This document shows positions 884 to 14,604 of a stretch of DNA of 14,938 nucleotides, piece after piece. A program made the position numbers and the translations under genes. Source of the DNA: a bacterium (GTDB lineage: Bacteria > CAIWAD01); the NCBI GenBank assembly GCA_030429345.1, contig JAUIFJ010000052.1:1-14938 (forward strand), written 5' to 3'. The notes beneath the pieces were generated by a model. That model saw only the letters and a program-made list of their open reading frames with translations, did not search any database and was not told the origin of the DNA. Numbering within the stretch: position 1 is the first letter of the stretch; every line of letters begins with the position of its first letter.

Positions 884-3800
884 CTATTTCAGCAGCAGCA
901 TCTTCTTCATCTGCACGCCCTGAGCGTGCTCGAGGCGCAGGATGTAGGCTCCGCTGGCCAGCGCGGCGGCGTTCCAGCTCAGCTGGTGGTGGCCGGCGGG
1001 CAGGGTCGTGTCCAGCAGCACGGCGACCTGCTGGCCCAGCAGGTTGTAGACGCTGGCGCGAACCGGCTGGGCGCGGGGCAGGCCGAAGGCGATCCGTGTG
1101 ACAGGATTGAAGGGGTTGGGCCGCGGCTCTTTCAGGTAGAAGGCCGCCGGCAGTCCCGCGTCTCCGATGCCGGTGAAGTCGGCCTCGACGACCAGCGTGT
1201 CCGAGTGCAGGCTCTCGCCTCCGGCATAGCGGGCGCTGATCGCGTAGTGGACTTCGCCCGGTGTTTCCAGGGTCTCGCCGAAGGCCGGCTCGTCGATGTT
1301 CGAGACATGGGTCTGCAGCTCCGTGTCCCCTTCAGCCGTGTGCATGCGGTAGACGCGGTAGTCGCTGAACTCGTCCGTTTCGTGTGCCGTACCCTTGCGC
1401 GCATTCAGCGTTTCGTCCCATTCGGGCTCCAGCCACTGCAGCGAGATCTCCGGACCATCCTGGCTCACAAGGCTCAGGCCGCGGGGAGGCAGCAGCTGGA
1501 AGAGGTCGTAGAGTGGGAGGTCCAGGGTGTCCCCGACGGGCACGGTTCCCAGTTGCAGAAGGGTCTCCACTCCATCGGGACCGATGGCCCAGAAGGGGCG
1601 CTGGCCCGGGGCCAGGCTGTCCAGCAGGAAGCTGCCGTCTTCCGGATCGATGGCGACCGTGTCCCCGACCGTGGCGAAACGGATCTGCTCGAAGAGGCCG
1701 GCGTCCCAGGGAGTCAGGCTCACCGTGCCGCGCACGGCACCCAGGCTGTTGATCGAAGTGAAGAGGATCGCCGTGCCCTCCGAGATCGCCGGAGCGTTGG
1801 GGTGATACTCTCCATTGTTGTAGACCTGCAGGCCCGCGTCCTCGGCGCTGTTCTCGATGCCGACGGCGATCTCGCTGATGTCCTCGAGCACACCGTACTG
1901 GAAGAGGATCTCGTTGTTGCCGCTGCTCGTCGGGTAGAGCAGGGGATCCCGCAGGATCACCTGGAAGGTCTCGTGCGCCGTTTCCGGGGTATACTGCTCG
2001 ACCTCCATGAATTCGACGATGAAGAGTCCGGCCATGGCGTGGTGATACCAGCTGATGGACCCGCTGGTCGGCCGCTGCGGACTCAGGTCCTCCCAGAAGG
2101 GAGCCAGGATGGCCGGCGGACCGTCGGGGTCGGGGAAGCCCTCGTCGCCGCTGTAGTCCGTGTCGTCCGTATTGCCCAGGGCCACCCAGCCGTTTCCGCA
2201 GACGCTCAGCTGGGTGAAGTCCTCGCCGTAGTGGGTGAAGGCGAAGGGCAGGTCGAGCACCTGGGTCTCGTCGTCGCCGGTGAAGACCATGGCCATGCCT
2301 GGACCGCCGGTGGCGGGGTCGATCTCGAACCAGTCGTAGACCGGCGCCTGCGGGTGCAGGTCGCGGTTGTCGATCATGATGTAGCCCTCGTCGGTGGGCT
2401 CGCTGGCGAGGAAGCTCTGGCCTTCGATCTGCAGGGCGACCTCGATCCCCTCTGCCGGCAGTTCGATCCCCGGATGAAGCTGGCTGTCCCTTGAATAGGC
2501 GACTTCGATGTCGTACGCCTGGCCGACGGGCAATTCGAAGGGTGCGCCAACCTGTGTGGTTACCCCTTCCGCCAGCAATTCCTGGTTCCACCAGACCTTG
2601 ACGGTTGCCCCTGCGATCTGGGTGGTTTCATGCATCACGCGGACCACGAGCCAGTCCAGTGGGCGGGCTTCCAGGTCCAGGTCGAGCCAGGTCGTGTCGC
2701 TGCCGGCGATCGAGAGCAGCGTGTCCAGGGTGAAGTATTCCGGGTGCGAGACGCTCAGCGTGTAGTCGCGGCCGACGGGCATGCGCAGGCGATAATCGCC
2801 CAGCCCGTTGCTCTGCGTCTGCGCGGGATGCTCCAGCAGCTGCAGCTGCGCCTGGATCACGGGGCTCTCGTCCTCGCTGTCGGCCAGGCGGCCGGCGAGC
2901 ACGCCGGTGTTGCCTTCCTGCAGCGGCAGATCGGCGGCCAGGGCGAAGTCCTGCTCGCCCAGGGCGATGCTGCTGCCCGTGACACGGATTGTCCAGGTGC
3001 CGGGCAGGGGATCGCTCACCGTGACCTGCTCGACCGTGTTCAGGCTGTCCACGCCGCTGGAGGCGGCGCTGCCGGGACTTGCCGGGTTCAGCACCCAGGG
3101 ACGATGCAGCTGCTCGTCGGGGGCCACCAGGACCAGGTCCAGGTCGTTGACCAGCTCGCGGACATCCAGGTAGGCGCCGGGCTCGTCGATCCAGGCCATG
3201 CTGACCTGGAAGCGCTCTTCGCCGGCAGGCACTTCGACCTCGTAGGTGCGCACCTGGTCCTGCGTGATCCGGTCCTCGAGCCAGCGGCCGGAAGTCAGCG
3301 CCATCACCGCCTTTTCGCTGTGGATGTTGCCGAAGCCGTACTGGTAGTCGGGGCCGCTATTGCCGCGATCGGTGGCGGTCTGGATCACAAGGGTCTTGGC
3401 CAGGGCCGGCGGCATGTGGGTGGCGCCGGGAATGCTGCGGCGGTACTCCTGCACCAGCTGTGCCACACAGCCCGCCGTCACGGGAGTCGCCATGCTCGTG
3501 CCGCTCATCGCCCCGGTGCCGCCTCCGGGCAGGGTGCTGGTGATGTTCTGTCCGGGAGCGCAGACATCGGGCTTGACGCGGCCGTCATCGGTGGGCCCCC
3601 AGCTGCTGAAGCCGGTCATCGTGTCGTTGGCGTCCTTGACTGTCGCGCCGACGATGATCGGGTTCTTGGCGCCGGAGGGCACGCTCATCGTCTCGTAGCT
3701 CGTGCCGCAGGGACCGCCGCTGCGCTCGTTGCCCGCGGCCCAGGTCATGATCACCGGCCGCCCGAGGCTGCCTCGGACGATGCCGTCGATCAGGATCGAG

Positions 3801-4843
3801 CTGTTCTCGTAGTCGCCCTGCCATTCGCAGGGGTAGCCGTTGGAATAGATGTTGGCGCCGAGGCTGACGGTGATGATGTCCGTGTCGTAGACGGCGATCG
3901 CCTCGCCGTGATCCGCCTCGATGTCCACCGGGCTGTCGTAGAGGCAGTTCGGATCACAGCCTTCGTACTCGTAGCTGATGATCTCGCAGGCCGGCGCCAT
4001 GCCGTACTGCGAGGCGTGGTTGCAGCCCACGCTGCCGGCCACGTGCGTCGGATGATCGCTGACCGCGCCGCTCTCGCTCAGGCCGACGATGGCCCGTCCC
4101 TCGAAGGCCGGGTGCCCGGTGTCGACCAGGCCGCCGTCGTATACGGTGACCGTCACGCCCTCGCCGCGCAGGTTGTGCGGTTCGCCCTGCGCCTCCTGGG
4201 CGTGAGTATACTGGCGCGCCCCGGAATTGACCGGGACCAGGGAAGGGTTCTTCTCCTGGATCCAGAGCACTTCGTCCGTTTCCAGCAGGAAGGGCAGCAG
4301 CTCGGGATCGAAGGCGCAGACCCAGGTGTGCGTCGTCTGGATCACGTGGTCGGCGGTGACGCCCTCGCCGCGCAGCCAGTCGCCGGCCTGCTCCAGATCC
4401 ACGTCGCGGTGGAACACGACCTGGAAGATCCGCTCGTGCTCCCCGTAGAGGCTGTGTTCGCTGAAGCGCCGGCCGTATACGCCCGGGCCCTCCTTGTCCA
4501 GGGGCAGGATCGCTTCGGCCCACTCGACCCCCGGCAGCGCGGCCAGGTCCCTGGCCGAGGGCTTGCAGCCGGCGATCCAGACCCCGTCCCCCAGGGGCTG
4601 CAGCAGGTGCAGGCCCCGGGTCTTCAGGGCATCGTGGCCTGCCTGGTCCAGGACCCCGGCCACCTTGACCAGGTTGTGGCGGATGTCGTTTCCGCGGAAG
4701 CTCCGCGAGCCCGGCGCGAAACGGAACTCGCCCTTCTGGACTTCCAGGCTGCGGTGCTTGAGCTGCAGGTGCTCCGCCGACAGGGGCAGGCTGATGGCCA
4801 GGCCGAGCAGGGCGATCGGCATCCAGTGGATCCGCAAGGACAT
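884..4843 (-). CDS. Secreted subtilisin-like S8 serine protease, multidomain, with PNPFNP-type C-terminal tail
   Basis: This is a 1319-aa exported protease. Residues 1-23 form a signal peptide (hydrophobic IALLGLAISLPLSA). Residues 24-210 look like a propeptide region. The S8 catalytic domain spans about 225-520: Asp236 in VTVYDGG, His264 in DHPTHVAG, oxyanion Asn372 in AAGNE and Ser450 in MSGTSMATP. The His motif has Pro where HGTHVAG is usual. Residues 525-640 form the jelly-roll domain common behind KP-43-type proteases (LVNDLDLVL, GTWTIRVTG). A carboxypeptidase-regulatory-like module (645-725), a second similar one, a large beta module (820-1030) and an FN3-like stretch (1120-1225) follow. 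Residues 1236-1319 are a FlgD-like/T9SS-type sorting module (RPNPFNPVTRIAF, YNLLGQQV, SGAYILRL, KKMLLLK). GGGAGA 5 nt before the ATG supports the start. The likely role is degradation of extracellular protein, either at the surface or released. The substrate is unknown. Confidence 0.93.
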   Translation of the reverse strand: MSLRIHWMPIALLGLAISLPLSAEHLQLKHRSLEVQKGEFRFAPGSRSFRGNDIRHNLVKVAGVLDQAGHDALKTRGLHLLQPLGDGVWIAGCKPSARDLAALPGVEWAEAILPLDKEGPGVYGRRFSEHSLYGEHERIFQVVFHRDVDLEQAGDWLRGEGVTADHVIQTTHTWVCAFDPELLPFLLETDEVLWIQEKNPSLVPVNSGARQYTHAQEAQGEPHNLRGEGVTVTVYDGGLVDTGHPAFEGRAIVGLSESGAVSDHPTHVAGSVGCNHASQYGMAPACEIISYEYEGCDPNCLYDSPVDIEADHGEAIAVYDTDIITVSLGANIYSNGYPCEWQGDYENSSILIDGIVRGSLGRPVIMTWAAGNERSGGPCGTSYETMSVPSGAKNPIIVGATVKDANDTMTGFSSWGPTDDGRVKPDVCAPGQNITSTLPGGGTGAMSGTSMATPVTAGCVAQLVQEYRRSIPGATHMPPALAKTLVIQTATDRGNSGPDYQYGFGNIHSEKAVMALTSGRWLEDRITQDQVRTYEVEVPAGEERFQVSMAWIDEPGAYLDVRELVNDLDLVLVAPDEQLHRPWVLNPASPGSAASSGVDSLNTVEQVTVSDPLPGTWTIRVTGSSIALGEQDFALAADLPLQEGNTGVLAGRLADSEDESPVIQAQLQLLEHPAQTQSNGLGDYRLRMPVGRDYTLSVSHPEYFTLDTLLSIAGSDTTWLDLDLEARPLDWLVVRVMHETTQIAGATVKVWWNQELLAEGVTTQVGAPFELPVGQAYDIEVAYSRDSQLHPGIELPAEGIEVALQIEGQSFLASEPTDEGYIMIDNRDLHPQAPVYDWFEIDPATGGPGMAMVFTGDDETQVLDLPFAFTHYGEDFTQLSVCGNGWVALGNTDDTDYSGDEGFPDPDGPPAILAPFWEDLSPQRPTSGSISWYHHAMAGLFIVEFMEVEQYTPETAHETFQVILRDPLLYPTSSGNNEILFQYGVLEDISEIAVGIENSAEDAGLQVYNNGEYHPNAPAISEGTAILFTSINSLGAVRGTVSLTPWDAGLFEQIRFATVGDTVAIDPEDGSFLLDSLAPGQRPFWAIGPDGVETLLQLGTVPVGDTLDLPLYDLFQLLPPRGLSLVSQDGPEISLQWLEPEWDETLNARKGTAHETDEFSDYRVYRMHTAEGDTELQTHVSNIDEPAFGETLETPGEVHYAISARYAGGESLHSDTLVVEADFTGIGDAGLPAAFYLKEPRPNPFNPVTRIAFGLPRAQPVRASVYNLLGQQVAVLLDTTLPAGHHQLSWNAAALASGAYILRLEHAQGVQMKKMLLLK

Positions 4844-7776: not shown

Positions 7777-9299
7777 TCCGTCTCTCCTTGTTGAAGGATG
7801 CGGCCCTGGTCGCAGCTCAGGACCTGTGTCACGCCGCTTTCCAGCGAAAGCGCCGGTACCAGCGCACTGGCGTCGCGCAGGCCGCAGTGATCCAGCAGCG
7901 CCAGGCTGTTGACGCGGCGCTCCTGCGGGGAGCCCGACTGGTCGAGCCATTGCCCGGCTGTCTGCAGGTCGCGCAGGGTGTCCTTGTGTTCCTTGCGGGC
8001 CCGCCCCAGCAGCCGTTCCTCGATCTGGCCCAGGGCGTTGGCGGCGCGTTCGGCCAGTTTGTCGATGTCCGGCCGGTTCTCGGCCTGCGCCACCTCGCCG
8101 ATCTGCGCCCGCAGCTCTTTGAGCTTCTCGCCGCTGCGGGCCACTTCTTCCATGCCCGGCAGGGACAGCAGGAAGTCTTCCGCCCAGGGCACTCCCGGCG
8201 CGGGAGCGCAGGAACCCTGGAAGCCGAATTCCGCCAGCAGGCGGGCCTCCGTCAGCACTTCCAGGCGCAGGTGCGGCCGGGGCCAATAGAGAGGCGGGGC
8301 GAGCGACAGCTCTTCGTGCGCGCCCTGCAGCTGCAGCGTATACAGCAGTTCGCCCGGACCGAGCACGCTCAGGGCGGGGCTCAGCAGCCAGTCCTGCAGC
8401 AGGGGACGGCTGAAGACATTGGGACTCAGGCGGTCCGGGTCGCCGCGCAGGCTGAAGGCGGCCTGCTGTTCGTCGAGGGGCCGCTGGCGGCGGCCTTCCA
8501 CGTCCACGAACCAGGGGGCGCGCAGGTCGTCGGCGGGCAGGGGCGCTTCCTTTTCGTGGGCCTGCAGGCGCTGCTGCCCGCGGTCCAGGAGCTCGGGAAG
8601 CTTCTTGTGCAGGGCATGCAGTTCGCCGTAGAAGGGACCGCAGAGGCTGCGCAGACCGGGCGCGGAAGGGTCAAGGCAGAGCAGGCCGCTGTCCGGAAAG
8701 GCTTCGCGCAGCAGGCGCATGAAGAATTCCGCCGGCGTCAGCGCATCCTCCAGGCAAGCCCCGATGCGCTCCTTCCAGTCGCTTTTCCACTCGTGTGTCG
8801 CCAGGAAGTCCTGCAGCTGCCGCTTCAGCGGGCGCTCCAGGGCCACCCGTCCAACGCTGTGTCCCTCGCGCCCGGGCGGGCAGGGCAGGCGGAACTCGGG
8901 CAGACCGGGAATCGTGATCCGAGTGGCCTCGACCCAGTCGTGGTCGTTGGCCTCGACCCAGAAAACGGGCAGCACGGGGCGATCGCCCAGGGCGCGCAGT
9001 TCGCGGGCCAGGGCCAGGATGGCGGCGGTCTTGTGCAAGGTATAGGCGGGGCCCAGCAACAGCCCGGCCTGCTGCCCGCTGACGAGCACGAGTGTCCGCG
9101 GGTCCTCCAGCAGCTTCAGCGTGTCGGCCGCGCCGGGGTTGGCCGCGCGCAGGGCGGGCAGCAGCGATCGCCTTCGGGCCAGCAGCTCCTCCTTGAGAGG
9201 CGCGCTCCGCAGAAGCCCGGACAAGGCCTCGCGTCCCGGCAGGGCCAGGCCGCAGTGGGCATAGAGTTCGCGCAGGACGGGGTCGGTCAGGGGACTCAC
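7773..9299 (-). CDS. bshC: Bacillithiol biosynthesis cysteine-adding enzyme BshC
   Basis: BshC is the proposed ligase of the final step, joining cysteine to GlcN-malate to give bacillithiol. The 508-aa product is slightly shorter than many BshC proteins (about 540). Family motifs are clear: LVSGQQAGLLLGPAYTLHK (72-90), PVFWVEANDHDWVEA (111-125), then LSPNVFSRPLLQDWLL (291-306) and LGPGELLYTLQL (313-324). A charged helical stretch (about 385-445) fits the long coiled coil that separates the BshC lobes. The GTG start at 9299 was chosen because GGAGAG stands 5 nt upstream, and because it gives a GTGA overlap with the methyltransferase stop, as at the next junction downstream. An in-frame ATG at 9419 would add 40 Pro/Arg/Gly-rich residues read from inside the methyltransferase. 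Expected partners are BshA and BshB1 encoded downstream. Confidence 0.93.
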   Translation of the reverse strand: MSPLTDPVLRELYAHCGLALPGREALSGLLRSAPLKEELLARRRSLLPALRAANPGAADTLKLLEDPRTLVLVSGQQAGLLLGPAYTLHKTAAILALARELRALGDRPVLPVFWVEANDHDWVEATRITIPGLPEFRLPCPPGREGHSVGRVALERPLKRQLQDFLATHEWKSDWKERIGACLEDALTPAEFFMRLLREAFPDSGLLCLDPSAPGLRSLCGPFYGELHALHKKLPELLDRGQQRLQAHEKEAPLPADDLRAPWFVDVEGRRQRPLDEQQAAFSLRGDPDRLSPNVFSRPLLQDWLLSPALSVLGPGELLYTLQLQGAHEELSLAPPLYWPRPHLRLEVLTEARLLAEFGFQGSCAPAPGVPWAEDFLLSLPGMEEVARSGEKLKELRAQIGEVAQAENRPDIDKLAERAANALGQIEERLLGRARKEHKDTLRDLQTAGQWLDQSGSPQERRVNSLALLDHCGLRDASALVPALSLESGVTQVLSCDQGRILQQGETE

Positions 9300-10066
9300 G
9301 AGGCTCTCCGGAAAAGCAGGATGCTGCGGGGCGAGTCCCCGCGGTAGGGTGCGCCGTCCAGGTCGCCCAGGTGGGCCTCCAGGCTGCAGCCGAGACGGCG
9401 GGCGCGTGACACGAACCATTCGGGATCGTAGAGCTTGACGGCCTCGTGGATCACGCGGGCTTCAGCGCCTTTCGGCCCGAAGCGGATCACCTTGCGCACC
9501 ATGTTGTCGGCTTTGTCGATCTCCCGCTCTTCGCGGACCTCCCAATCGCCGACCTGTCGTGTGCTCTCTGGCACCAGGTGTTCGCGCAGCCAGGCCGGAT
9601 TCAGGTAGTCGATCAGCAGGCGGCCTCCCGGCCGCGGCAGGCCCGTCATGGCCTGCAGCAGGGAGGCGTTTCGTTCGTCCTCGCGGTTGTAGCCGAAACT
9701 GGTGAAAAGGCTCAGCACCCAGTCGAAGACCGGCGCCAGGGGCGGGTGATGCATGTCGCCGCGCAGGTACAGCGCCGTGCCGCCCTGGCGCAGTGCCTCG
9801 TCCAGGAGCACGCGGGACCAGTCCAGGCCCAGCACACGAAAGCCGCGGCGGGCCAGTTCCCGTGTGTGACGCCCGCTGCCGCAGGCCAGGTCGAGCACAC
9901 GTGGAGCGGGGTCCCCGTCGGCGCGAAAGCCGTGGGCCTCTTCCAGCAGGTCGAGGAAATGGCGGGCTTCGGCGGGATCGCGGTGGCTGTAGAGCCTCAG
10001 GTAGTCCTGGTCGAACCAGTCCTGGTGCCAGGAGGATTCAAGAGGGGGGCTGGAAGGGCTTGGCAT
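9296..10066 (-). CDS. SAM-dependent class I methyltransferase in the bacillithiol operon (candidate bacillithiol N-methyltransferase)
   Basis: This is a 256-aa soluble Rossmann-fold methyltransferase. Motif I is VLDLACGSGRHT (57-68), the acidic end of strand 2 is D82 in VLGLDWS, GDM (103-105) follows, then SLFTSFGYN (119-127) and PGGRLLIDY (146-154). Substrate cannot be read from these motifs. It sits directly before bshC with a GTGA overlap. Established knowledge: some bacillithiol producers (Chlorobaculum tepidum) make N-methyl-bacillithiol with a SAM-dependent methyltransferase named NmbA. Methylation of bacillithiol's glucosamine nitrogen is therefore an attractive inference here, but orthology to NmbA was not tested. 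The start at 10066 was preferred because AGGA lies 5 nt upstream; ATG 10072 is the alternative with two more residues. Either start lies inside the 3' end of the histidine kinase gene (about 30-nt overlap), so coupling is likely. Confidence 0.85.
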   Translation of the reverse strand: MPSPSSPPLESSWHQDWFDQDYLRLYSHRDPAEARHFLDLLEEAHGFRADGDPAPRVLDLACGSGRHTRELARRGFRVLGLDWSRVLLDEALRQGGTALYLRGDMHHPPLAPVFDWVLSLFTSFGYNREDERNASLLQAMTGLPRPGGRLLIDYLNPAWLREHLVPESTRQVGDWEVREEREIDKADNMVRKVIRFGPKGAEARVIHEAVKLYDPEWFVSRARRLGCSLEAHLGDLDGAPYRGDSPRSILLFRRAS

Positions 10067-12155
10067 TCGCATCCTGCCGGGGGCTGTGCGCGGGGCCCAG
10101 CCGTTCGGGCAGGGTCTCCAGCAGTTCCTTGACCTCGTTGATCTTGAAGGGCTTGGCCAGCACGCGGTGAATGTGGTGCTCGCGGAGCTCCTGCTCGGAG
10201 ATCTGCGTGCCCCATCCGGTGACCAGGATCAGCACCACGTTGCTGTTCTCCTGGGCGCTGTGCCGCCAGACGGAGCGGGCCACGTCCCAGCCGCTGATCT
10301 GCGGCATGCCGAGGTCCGTGAAGAGCACATCATAGCCAACGCGACGGTATTTCTCCACGCCTTCGCGTCCGCCGGTCGCCTCGTCGACCTCGTGCCCCAT
10401 GGCGCGCAGGATCTCGACTAGCACGCCGCGCACGTCCTCCTCGTCGTCGACCACCAGGATGCGCCGCTTGTGGCGGCTGCGGATCGACTCCAGGTCATGG
10501 GCGACCCCGCCCGCCGGCAGACTGCCCTTGTCTTCCTGCCGGTGCAGCGGCAGACGGATCTCGAAGAGCGTGCCTTCGCCGGGATGGCTGTCGACCTTGA
10601 TTGTGCCGCCGTGCTGCTTGATGATGCCATGGCTCACAGACAGCCCGAGGCCGTTGCCCTGCACGCCCTTGGTGGTGAAATAGGGCTCGAAGATGCGCGC
10701 CGCGACGATCGAGGTCATGCCGCTGCCGGTGTCCTTGACGCGCAGGACGGCCTCTTCGCCTTCCTGGCGGCCGCTGATGCGGATCGCGCCGCCGTTGGGC
10801 ATGGCCTCGAGGGCGTTGTTCAGCAGGTTGTGCAGCACTTCGCGCAACTCGGTGTTGTTGCCCAGGACCCGCAGCTCGCTTTCCATGTTGCAGACCACGT
10901 CGTAGTTGATGCCGATCTTGCCGGCTTTCTGCTTCCACAGGGGGCGGGTCATTTCAATCACATCATCGACCACATCGCAGAGGTCGACGGCGTCCATGGG
11001 GCGCACGGTGGCGCCGCGCGTGAAGTCCTGGATCCGCTTGACCAGCACGGCGCCGTCGCTGGCGCTTTTCTGGATCATCGCCAGGCCCTTGGCCAGGGGC
11101 TCGGGCAGGTTCTCTTCGAGCCGCAGCAGCTCGAGCCGCGCCAGGATCGCGCCGAGGATGTTGTTGAAGTCGTGCGCCACGCCATTCGCCATCTGTCCCA
11201 TGGCTTTCAGCTTTTCGCTGCGCAGGAGCTGCTCCTGGGTCTCGCGCAGGCGGCGATTGCTTTCGCTGAGCGCCCGGTTGGTGTTTTCCACCGCCAGGGT
11301 CTGGCTCTGCAGGGTCAGCTTCTGGTCCTTGAGGTTCCGGTTCAGCTCCTCCAGGCGCTGGTTTTTCTCGCTCAGTTCCTCGCTCTGGGTCTTCAGGGCC
11401 ACGGCCTGTTTCTCCAGGCGTTCGCTCAGCTCCTGCATCTTGTTGTAGCGGCGCGTGTGCTGCAGAAGGTAGTAGAGGGGAAGGGCCATCAGGGCCACGC
11501 CGGCCCAGCCGGTGCGCTGGAAGAGGTAGTACAGGGTCACGCCCAGGAAGACGGCGAAGGTGTTGGCGCTCAGGTCGAAATAGTGGAAGCGGCTCAGCTG
11601 GCGGTGCAGGGGAAGGCCCTGTTCCAGGTAGATCGCCGTGCTGACCAGCAGCTGGTTGAGCAGGAAAAAGCCGAGACCCAGCACGATGAAGCCCGGCAGG
11701 TGCGCCATTTCCAGGGGCACGCCGGGCAGTACGGGATGGGTCCAGGAGTAGAGCAGGGCCGTGCCGGAGACGCTGAGGGCGATCTGGCCCACATTGAATC
11801 CGACGCGGTACCAGGGCTTCTTCAGCTGGAAGCCGTTGAGCCACAGGGCATTCAGGGCGGCGACCCAGGTGGCCGTCGCGCCGCCGAACTGCAGGATCAG
11901 GTAGAAATCGAGCACGGAATTCATCGTGCTCGCAACCTTGCTGCCTCGTGCGCGCACCGCGAAACGGTTGCCGACCAGCAGCACTCCCAGCCAGGGCAGC
12001 AGGAGCAGCAGATCCGAGGGATCCAGCTGCTGCTGCAGGGAGCGCGCGCAGAAGCCCAGCAGGAGCGTTCCCGCAAGGATCACCAGGAAGACATAGGTCT
12101 TCAGGGCGCTGTTCATGCCCTGGGGCATGGGGCTGTCAGTAGTCTGGACGGACAT
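10038..12155 (-). CDS. Membrane-bound hybrid histidine kinase with C-terminal receiver domain
   Basis: This is a 705-aa signal transducer. Residues 18-232 contain about seven hydrophobic segments and look like a membrane sensor of the MASE type (MASE9-like pattern, not proven). A charged coiled coil (about 235-315) links it to the HisKA domain with phospho-acceptor H328 in GVAHDFNNIL. The ATPase follows: N box HNLLNNALEAM (442-452), G1 KDTGSGM (474-480), FEPYFTTK and G2 NGLGLS (501-506). A REC domain occupies about 565-680, with D570/D571, phospho-acceptor D614 in FTDLGMPQ, T646 and K668 in LAKPF. No output domain follows, so signal flow needs a partner or the REC is a phosphate sink. It is the first gene of the bacillithiol operon, with a 29-35 nt overlap into the methyltransferase. 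Start 12155 lacks a clear Shine-Dalgarno; Met10 (12128) or Met14 (12116) are alternatives before the first membrane helix. Confidence 0.93.
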   Translation of the reverse strand: MSVQTTDSPMPQGMNSALKTYVFLVILAGTLLLGFCARSLQQQLDPSDLLLLLPWLGVLLVGNRFAVRARGSKVASTMNSVLDFYLILQFGGATATWVAALNALWLNGFQLKKPWYRVGFNVGQIALSVSGTALLYSWTHPVLPGVPLEMAHLPGFIVLGLGFFLLNQLLVSTAIYLEQGLPLHRQLSRFHYFDLSANTFAVFLGVTLYYLFQRTGWAGVALMALPLYYLLQHTRRYNKMQELSERLEKQAVALKTQSEELSEKNQRLEELNRNLKDQKLTLQSQTLAVENTNRALSESNRRLRETQEQLLRSEKLKAMGQMANGVAHDFNNILGAILARLELLRLEENLPEPLAKGLAMIQKSASDGAVLVKRIQDFTRGATVRPMDAVDLCDVVDDVIEMTRPLWKQKAGKIGINYDVVCNMESELRVLGNNTELREVLHNLLNNALEAMPNGGAIRISGRQEGEEAVLRVKDTGSGMTSIVAARIFEPYFTTKGVQGNGLGLSVSHGIIKQHGGTIKVDSHPGEGTLFEIRLPLHRQEDKGSLPAGGVAHDLESIRSRHKRRILVVDDEEDVRGVLVEILRAMGHEVDEATGGREGVEKYRRVGYDVLFTDLGMPQISGWDVARSVWRHSAQENSNVVLILVTGWGTQISEQELREHHIHRVLAKPFKINEVKELLETLPERLGPAHSPRQDANAKPFQPPS

Positions 12156-13567: not shown

Positions 13568-13912
13568 ATGGCCACCTCGATACGCGACTGGGAAGCCGAG
13601 CGCGCCTCCCTGCAGGAACACTTCATTGCCCACTCCAGCCTGAACGGCAAGCGCCTGCTCAGCCTGGAGCACAAGGTCTTCCGGGCCGGAGCACTGGACG
13701 AGCGCACCAAGGAGTTGCTGGGCCTGGCGGCGAGCCTGGTCCTGCGCTGCGAGGACTGCGTGCGCTACCACCTGCTCGAGTGTCACAAACGGGGCCTGAG
13801 CCTCGAAGAGCTGCAGGAGATCCTCGACATCTGCCTGATGATCGGCGGCTCGATCACCATTCCCGCCATTCGCCGCGCCCTGCGAGACTTCAACGAGCTG
13901 AAGGCCGAATGA
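13568..13912 (+). CDS. Carboxymuconolactone decarboxylase / AhpD-like family protein
   Basis: This is a 114-aa all-helical protein of the CMD family. The core is KELLGLAASLVLRCEDCVRYHL (48-69), with the AhpD-type C-x-x-C...H signature C61, C64 and H68, then ECHKRGLSLEELQEIL and IGGSITIPAIRRAL. In this family the CxxC pair supports alkylhydroperoxidase or other thiol-disulfide chemistry when a partner is present; the substrate here is unknown. The full length and intact cysteines suggest a redox-active rather than a gamma-carboxymuconolactone decarboxylase role. The start lacks a clear Shine-Dalgarno. The stop overlaps the sfsA start as ATGA, so the two are co-translated. A redox role would sit well in a genome that makes bacillithiol, but no direct link is shown. 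Confidence 0.9.
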   Translation: MATSIRDWEAERASLQEHFIAHSSLNGKRLLSLEHKVFRAGALDERTKELLGLAASLVLRCEDCVRYHLLECHKRGLSLEELQEILDICLMIGGSITIPAIRRALRDFNELKAE

Positions 13913-14604
13913 CCTTTGATCCCCCGCTGATCCCGGCCCGCCTGCTCAAGCGCTACAAGCGCTTCCTGGCCGATGTGCGCACGGAAGAAGGCGAGCTGCT
14001 GACGGTCCACGTGGCCAACAGCGGCTCGATGAAGACCTGCCTGGGCGAGGACTGGCCGGTGATGCTCAGCGACAGCCGGAATCCGAAGCGCAAATTGAGA
14101 TACAGCCTGGAGATGCTTCACGACGGGCAGGGCTGGATCGGCGTCAATACCTCGCGCCCCAACGCGCTGGTCGAAGAGGCGATCCTGGCGGCCGCCGTGC
14201 CCGGCTTCGAGGGCTGGAGCGACTGGCGCCGCGAAGTGCGCTACGGCAAGGGCAGCCGCATCGACCTGCTGGGAAGGCAGGGAGAGCGCCTGTGCTACGT
14301 CGAGGTCAAGAACGTGACCCTGCTGCACGAGGGGCAGCCCTCCTTTCCCGACGCAGTCACCGAGCGCGGCCGCAAGCACCTGGAAGAGCTGTCGGACATG
14401 GTCCGAGAAGGACACCGCGCCGTGCTCTTTCTCTGCGTGCAACGCCAGGGCGGGGAGCGCTTCCTGCCGGCGCGCCACATCGACCCCGCCTGGTGCGAGG
14501 CGCTGCAGGTCGCGATGCAGGCCGGCGTCGAAGTGCTGGCCTGGCGCTTCCGTGTGACACCGGAAGGCATCACTCCGCAGGAAGAGCTGGCCCTGGATTT
14601 GTAG
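13909..14604 (+). CDS. sfsA: SfsA family DNA/RNA-binding protein (predicted nuclease)
   Basis: This is a 231-aa protein of normal SfsA length. Conserved blocks are present in order: RYKRFLADV (15-23) in the N-terminal OB-like part, HVANSGSMKTCL (34-45), GVNTSRPN (78-85), then GSRIDLLG (115-122) and CYVEVKNVTL (129-138), FPDAVTERGRKHLEEL (146-161) and HIDPAW (190-195). D119, E132 and K134 form the PD-(D/E)xK-like nuclease core known from SfsA structures. The name comes from sugar fermentation stimulation in E. coli; the true physiological role is unsettled. The ATG overlaps the CMD stop (ATGA), with AAGG 4 nt upstream. Upstream in-frame starts inside the CMD gene were rejected. The final codons end in GTAG, which is also the foot sequence before the next hairpin. 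Confidence 0.95.
   Translation: MTFDPPLIPARLLKRYKRFLADVRTEEGELLTVHVANSGSMKTCLGEDWPVMLSDSRNPKRKLRYSLEMLHDGQGWIGVNTSRPNALVEEAILAAAVPGFEGWSDWRREVRYGKGSRIDLLGRQGERLCYVEVKNVTLLHEGQPSFPDAVTERGRKHLEELSDMVREGHRAVLFLCVQRQGGERFLPARHIDPAWCEALQVAMQAGVEVLAWRFRVTPEGITPQEELALDL

Follow-up and report, generated by a model that had tools for sequence, protein, structure and literature searches.

A predicted bacillithiol N-methyltransferase gene in a probable nmbA-bshC-bshB1-bshA operon, a gene order that recurs in several bacterial lineages

N-methyl-bacillithiol synthesis is known from Chlorobaculum tepidum, where a CT1040 deletion mutant has lost N-methyl-bacillithiol and still contains bacillithiol (PMC6282198). 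The purified NmbA enzymes of C. tepidum and Paenibacillus polymyxa, two organisms from different phyla, carry out the reaction in vitro, using SAM to methylate finished bacillithiol at its cysteine nitrogen, and 1765 species from validly named phyla are predicted to have an NmbA orthologue (PMC12719100). Hiras et al. propose bacillithiol as the ancestral state, with nmbA gained in different lineages. The word "operon" is absent from both primary NmbA papers (PMC6282198 and PMC12719100), and a full-text literature search of open-licence papers returned none on an nmbA-bsh operon. In C. tepidum the genes are scattered, as their locus numbers lie far apart (CT0548, CT1419, CT1558 (or CT1158 as printed) and CT1040). 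In contrast, the window analyzed here, by which we mean the whole stretch of 14,938 nucleotides, carries them in one cluster.

The cluster lies on the minus strand and reads, in the order of transcription, a membrane hybrid histidine kinase/response regulator gene (12155-10038, 705 aa), the nmbA orthologue, which encodes a predicted SAM-dependent bacillithiol N-methyltransferase (10066-9296, 256 aa), bshC for the cysteine-adding enzyme (9299-7773, 508 aa), bshB1 for the GlcNAc-malate deacetylase (7776-7057, 239 aa) and bshA for the GlcNAc-malate synthase (7060-5930, 376 aa). The initial annotation had described a GTGA overlap between the methyltransferase gene and bshC and the same four-nucleotide coupling on to bshB1 and bshA, and the minus-strand letters bear this out at each junction. 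The TGA stop of nmbA (9298-9296) overlaps the GTG start of bshC at 9299 to give GTGA (9299-9296), the stop of bshC overlaps the GTG start of bshB1 in the same way (GTGA, 7776-7773), and the stop of bshB1 overlaps the ATG start of bshA (ATGA, 7060-7057). The same annotation spoke of a methyltransferase "fused" into the operon, which holds only as a figure of speech: the methyltransferase and BshC occupy separate frames with a stop codon between them, and a fusion protein is ruled out. Its start codon for the methyltransferase, at 10066, is plausible; a second in-frame ATG at 10072 would give a protein of 258 aa. Depending on which of these two candidate starts is used, the 3' end of the kinase gene runs 29-35 nucleotides into the nmbA frame. 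All reading frames of the cluster are intact, and no RNA element was found within the window. The five genes from the kinase to bshA have a uniform GC content (65-70%), giving no sign that nmbA was inserted recently. The four genes nmbA-bshC-bshB1-bshA probably form one transcription unit that is translationally coupled through the four-nucleotide overlaps, and the preceding kinase gene may belong to it.

The product of 9296-10066 contains a methyltransferase domain (Pfam Methyltransf_25, 1.3e-12). Its closest solved protein is C. tepidum NmbA (CtNmbA; CT1040, PDB 9RI2), which phmmer matched over residues 14-255 with an E-value of 6e-35 and 124 bits, the runner-up PDB chain reaching 46 bits over the SAM-binding core only. 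The two proteins are 33% identical over 247 columns, that is over nearly their whole length, and these values lie inside the published limits for an NmbA orthologue (E <= 1e-20, coverage > 80% and identity > 25%; PMC12719100). In the reciprocal search, performed with residues 15-260 of the 9RI2 sequence, the best match of CtNmbA in this genome was the window methyltransferase (120 bits vs 68 for the next). We then placed the protein in a maximum-likelihood tree of 90 sequences, in which it grouped with CtNmbA in one clade of 85 (support 96/97) apart from an outgroup of five other methyltransferases, of which this genome supplied four. As these outgroups are few and long-branched, the separation supports rather than proves orthology to NmbA. 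The initial annotation had inferred this orthology, proposing an alignment with NmbA and naming a place in an unrelated methyltransferase clade as the finding that would speak against it. Alignment identifies a full-length member of the NmbA family, and the phmmer match, the reciprocal best match and the tree, where the protein nests with CtNmbA, all support the proposal. The window methyltransferase is thus supported as an NmbA orthologue, a further member of an already known family.

In 258-aa numbering, all of the clade-defining columns are kept in the protein (W15, F20, Y24, Y28, R31, A36, R68, H69, F123, G127, Y128 (equivalent to Y134 of CtNmbA), K194, E210, G236 and R249). Those invariant or nearly invariant in the clade, for example W15, F20, Y24, Y28, R31, R68-H69, Y128, K194 and E210, are mostly absent from paralogues. 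Also conserved are the SAM motif VLDLACGSGRH, shared with CtNmbA, together with D84, D106 and Y128, and an N-terminal signature common to both proteins, W-x3-WFD..Y..Y.HRD..EA. Two positions depart from the NmbA consensus in the window's family. The first corresponds to F135 of CtNmbA, which with a second aromatic residue is proposed to hold the SAM adenine, and is N in the window protein and N/L/L/H across the family; the second corresponds to R114 of CtNmbA and is H/A/G/S. An AlphaFold2 model of the window protein (pLDDT 93.9) adopts a class I fold, and its best VIA-align match is 9ri2_A (Z 25.5, 200 residues, rmsd 2.5). The fold does not discriminate between families, however, since YunM (Z 24.9) and CypM (Z 24.1) come within about one and a half Z units of 9RI2, and fold comparison was dropped as a discriminator. 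Moreover, AlphaFold is reported to misplace the strands of the NmbA cap (PMC12719100), so that the substrate pocket cannot be judged from the model. The substitutions at the F135 and R114 positions, together with this limit on the model, leave a small chance that the enzyme methylates a precursor or conjugate of bacillithiol, or another position, and so yields a methylated bacillithiol other than N-methyl-bacillithiol. This is the most probable of the alternatives, but it is improbable in view of the full-length similarity to NmbA, the shared invariant residues and the fact that, for the enzymes of C. tepidum and P. polymyxa alike, the cysteine nitrogen is the atom that receives the methyl group (PMC12719100).

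Next to nmbA, this operon of the genome holds a full bshA-B-C set. BshB1 scored 258 bits against the NCBIfam equivalog TIGR04001 (cut-off 182.5) and matched PDB entries 1UAN (1.8e-46) and 6P2T (2e-37), and BshA scored 512 bits against TIGR03999 (cut-off 273.7) and matched 2JJM (2e-113) and 5D00 (8e-109). In contrast, BshC stayed below the equivalog cut-off of TIGR03998 (221 vs 265.8 bits). It matched Pfam BshC (PF10079, 162 bits, 3.9e-47) and the solved BshC 4WBD (7e-27), and it is the only BshC in the genome. Because its only family and PDB matches are BshC proteins, we treated it as a divergent BshC. A search for YpdA, the bacillithiol-disulphide reductase, gave no match over the cut-off, a result that is uninformative in itself and that we enter against N-methyl-bacillithiol synthesis.

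Taken with family membership and conserved residues, the recurrent gene order described below leads us to read the window gene as nmbA. BshA would synthesize GlcNAc-malate, BshB1 would deacetylate it and BshC would add cysteine to give bacillithiol; the NmbA orthologue would then use SAM to methylate the finished bacillithiol on its cysteine nitrogen, and the main thiol of the cell would be, wholly or partly, N-methyl-bacillithiol. We put the probability of this reading as a whole, in which the nmbA orthologue N-methylates bacillithiol, the main thiol is N-methyl-bacillithiol at least in part and the four genes probably act as one unit, at about 0.88. From orthology and linkage, the enzyme most likely performs the same reaction as the known NmbA proteins, and from orthology and gene order the organism very probably makes N-methyl-bacillithiol; we infer in this way the substrate, the methylated atom and the presence of the thiol in this organism.

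To determine how often nmbA adjoins bshC, as the initial annotation had suggested examining, we aligned the window protein with CtNmbA and three relatives, used this alignment to scan species genomes and retained the loci of the best 80 matches. Out of these, 76 had enough downstream sequence to be usable, and all had been fetched by NmbA similarity alone, without regard to bshC. Within these best matches of one query, bshC lies directly downstream of nmbA on the same strand in 30/76 loci from many phyla, 17 of the 30 having a four-nucleotide start-stop overlap between the two genes. Since the adjacency recurs in so many independently fetched loci, it is not due to chance. In seven of the usable loci, all from other lineages, the complete order nmbA-bshC-bshB-bshA is found on one strand. 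They belong to Planctomycetota (L015), Acidobacteriota (L050), an unclassified bacterium, MAG26 (L057), Electryonea/Electryoneota (L061), Fibrobacteria/Fibrobacterota (L065), Lentisphaerales/Lentisphaerota (L068) and Eisenbacteria/Eiseniibacteriota (L091), and with the window included their NmbA proteins are 32-48% identical. Like the window, the L057 and L061 clusters have four-nucleotide overlaps at every junction. Gemmatimonadota carry pairs in which nmbA is directly 5' of bshC, often with the four-nucleotide overlap seen in the window; unlike in the window, bshB and bshA do not adjoin them. Among the Chlorobiota and Bacteroidota loci fetched, bshC does not adjoin nmbA.

Pairwise NmbA distances increase with those of BshC (r = 0.87, 32 loci; permutation p = 0.0002), and within the eight four-gene loci the correlations are 0.67 for nmbA-bshC, 0.59 for nmbA-bshB and 0.39 for nmbA-bshA. 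These correlations are consistent with the genes having been inherited together, whether vertically or through transfer of the complete operon, two routes that the test cannot separate. Recurrent linkage also largely refutes the idea that the window protein is a member of the wider CypM/daptide/sugar-N-methyltransferase superfamily with an unrelated substrate, placed beside bshC by accident. Its best NCBIfam match is indeed daptide_MTase and the folds are similar, but that match, at 59 bits, is far below the cut-off of 175 and the NmbA match is twice as strong (124 bits), so that a daptide-type methyltransferase was rejected; with bshC adjoining in 30 loci of many phyla and the distances correlated, we consider an unrelated substrate very unlikely.

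Two further observations were made on the upstream neighbours of these loci. In several Gemmatimonadota genomes a conserved gene of about 155 aa lies directly 5' of nmbA-bshC (L013:4347-4814; L026, L027, L031, L040, L043 and L045); its product is a SPOUT methyltransferase (RlmH-like), and a thiol-related role for it was rejected. In the Lentisphaerales locus the four genes are directly preceded by a gene for a metallo-beta-lactamase-fold hydrolase (L068:260-901), possibly a thiol-dependent hydrolase.

We examined five genomes of the phylum, the window's own included. By 16S the lineage is only distantly related to named bacteria, the best long match being Candidatus Electryonea at 81%. The same four, all from one family, have both nmbA and bshC, and the fifth, from another family and 67% complete, has neither. 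The nmbA products of the relatives are 47-52% identical to that of the window. The order kinase-nmbA-bshC is found in 4/4 genomes of the family (the three other loci being L096-L098); it runs on to bshB and bshA in G003 and does so in G004 as far as the contig goes, and the G002 contig ends inside bshC. A kinase of this type was not seen next to nmbA in any other fetched locus outside the family and, in contrast to the window, the seven other four-gene clusters lack a histidine kinase gene immediately 5' of nmbA. The N-terminal part of the kinase is without a Pfam match and appears by eye to be membrane-spanning; HisKA, HATPase_c and Response_reg (receiver) domains follow, and no DNA-binding output domain was found with Pfam. 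Its position suggests that it could regulate thiol synthesis. That the cluster is inactive or yields mainly plain bacillithiol, with nmbA expressed weakly or conditionally under this kinase, draws on the constant place of the kinase gene before nmbA in the family but is the least probable of the alternatives, the reading frames being intact and nmbA being kept in relatives at the identities given above.

N-methyl-bacillithiol synthesis in the window adds one more case to a known pathway, predicted now for this phylum, of which five genomes were examined, and its gene arrangement is widespread. The linkage connects nmbA with bacillithiol synthesis in some eight lineages, which neither PMC6282198 nor PMC12719100 mentions, and bears on the published idea of separate nmbA gains. 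Recurrence of the four-gene order argues modestly for a common unit of greater age. A fuller scenario, to which we give somewhat less than even odds, would have nmbA-bshC-bshB-bshA arise once, long ago, and reach many phyla as a set, by inheritance or by transfer; the scattering in Chlorobiota and Bacteroidota would reflect its break-up, and the window's family would have added a membrane hybrid histidine kinase dedicated to it, perhaps as a sensor of redox or thiol stress. Such a single old unit contrasts with the published gain of nmbA separately in different lineages, and it raises a testable question, namely whether the methylated thiol dates back further than has been assumed. The four-gene clusters also offer natural cassettes for producing N-methyl-bacillithiol in a laboratory host.

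The rest of the window contains several other genes. On the minus strand, 884-4843 encodes a secreted subtilase (Peptidase_S8) whose C-terminal sorting domain (Por_Secre_tail) suggests that this lineage has a type IX-like secretion system, and 169-819 is an IS200-like (Y1_Tnp) transposase-related frame just under the Pfam cut-off. On the plus strand, a carboxymuconolactone-decarboxylase-family gene and sfsA (13568-14604) are joined by an ATGA overlap at 13909-13912, and a gene for a protein with two CBS domains lies upstream of this pair.
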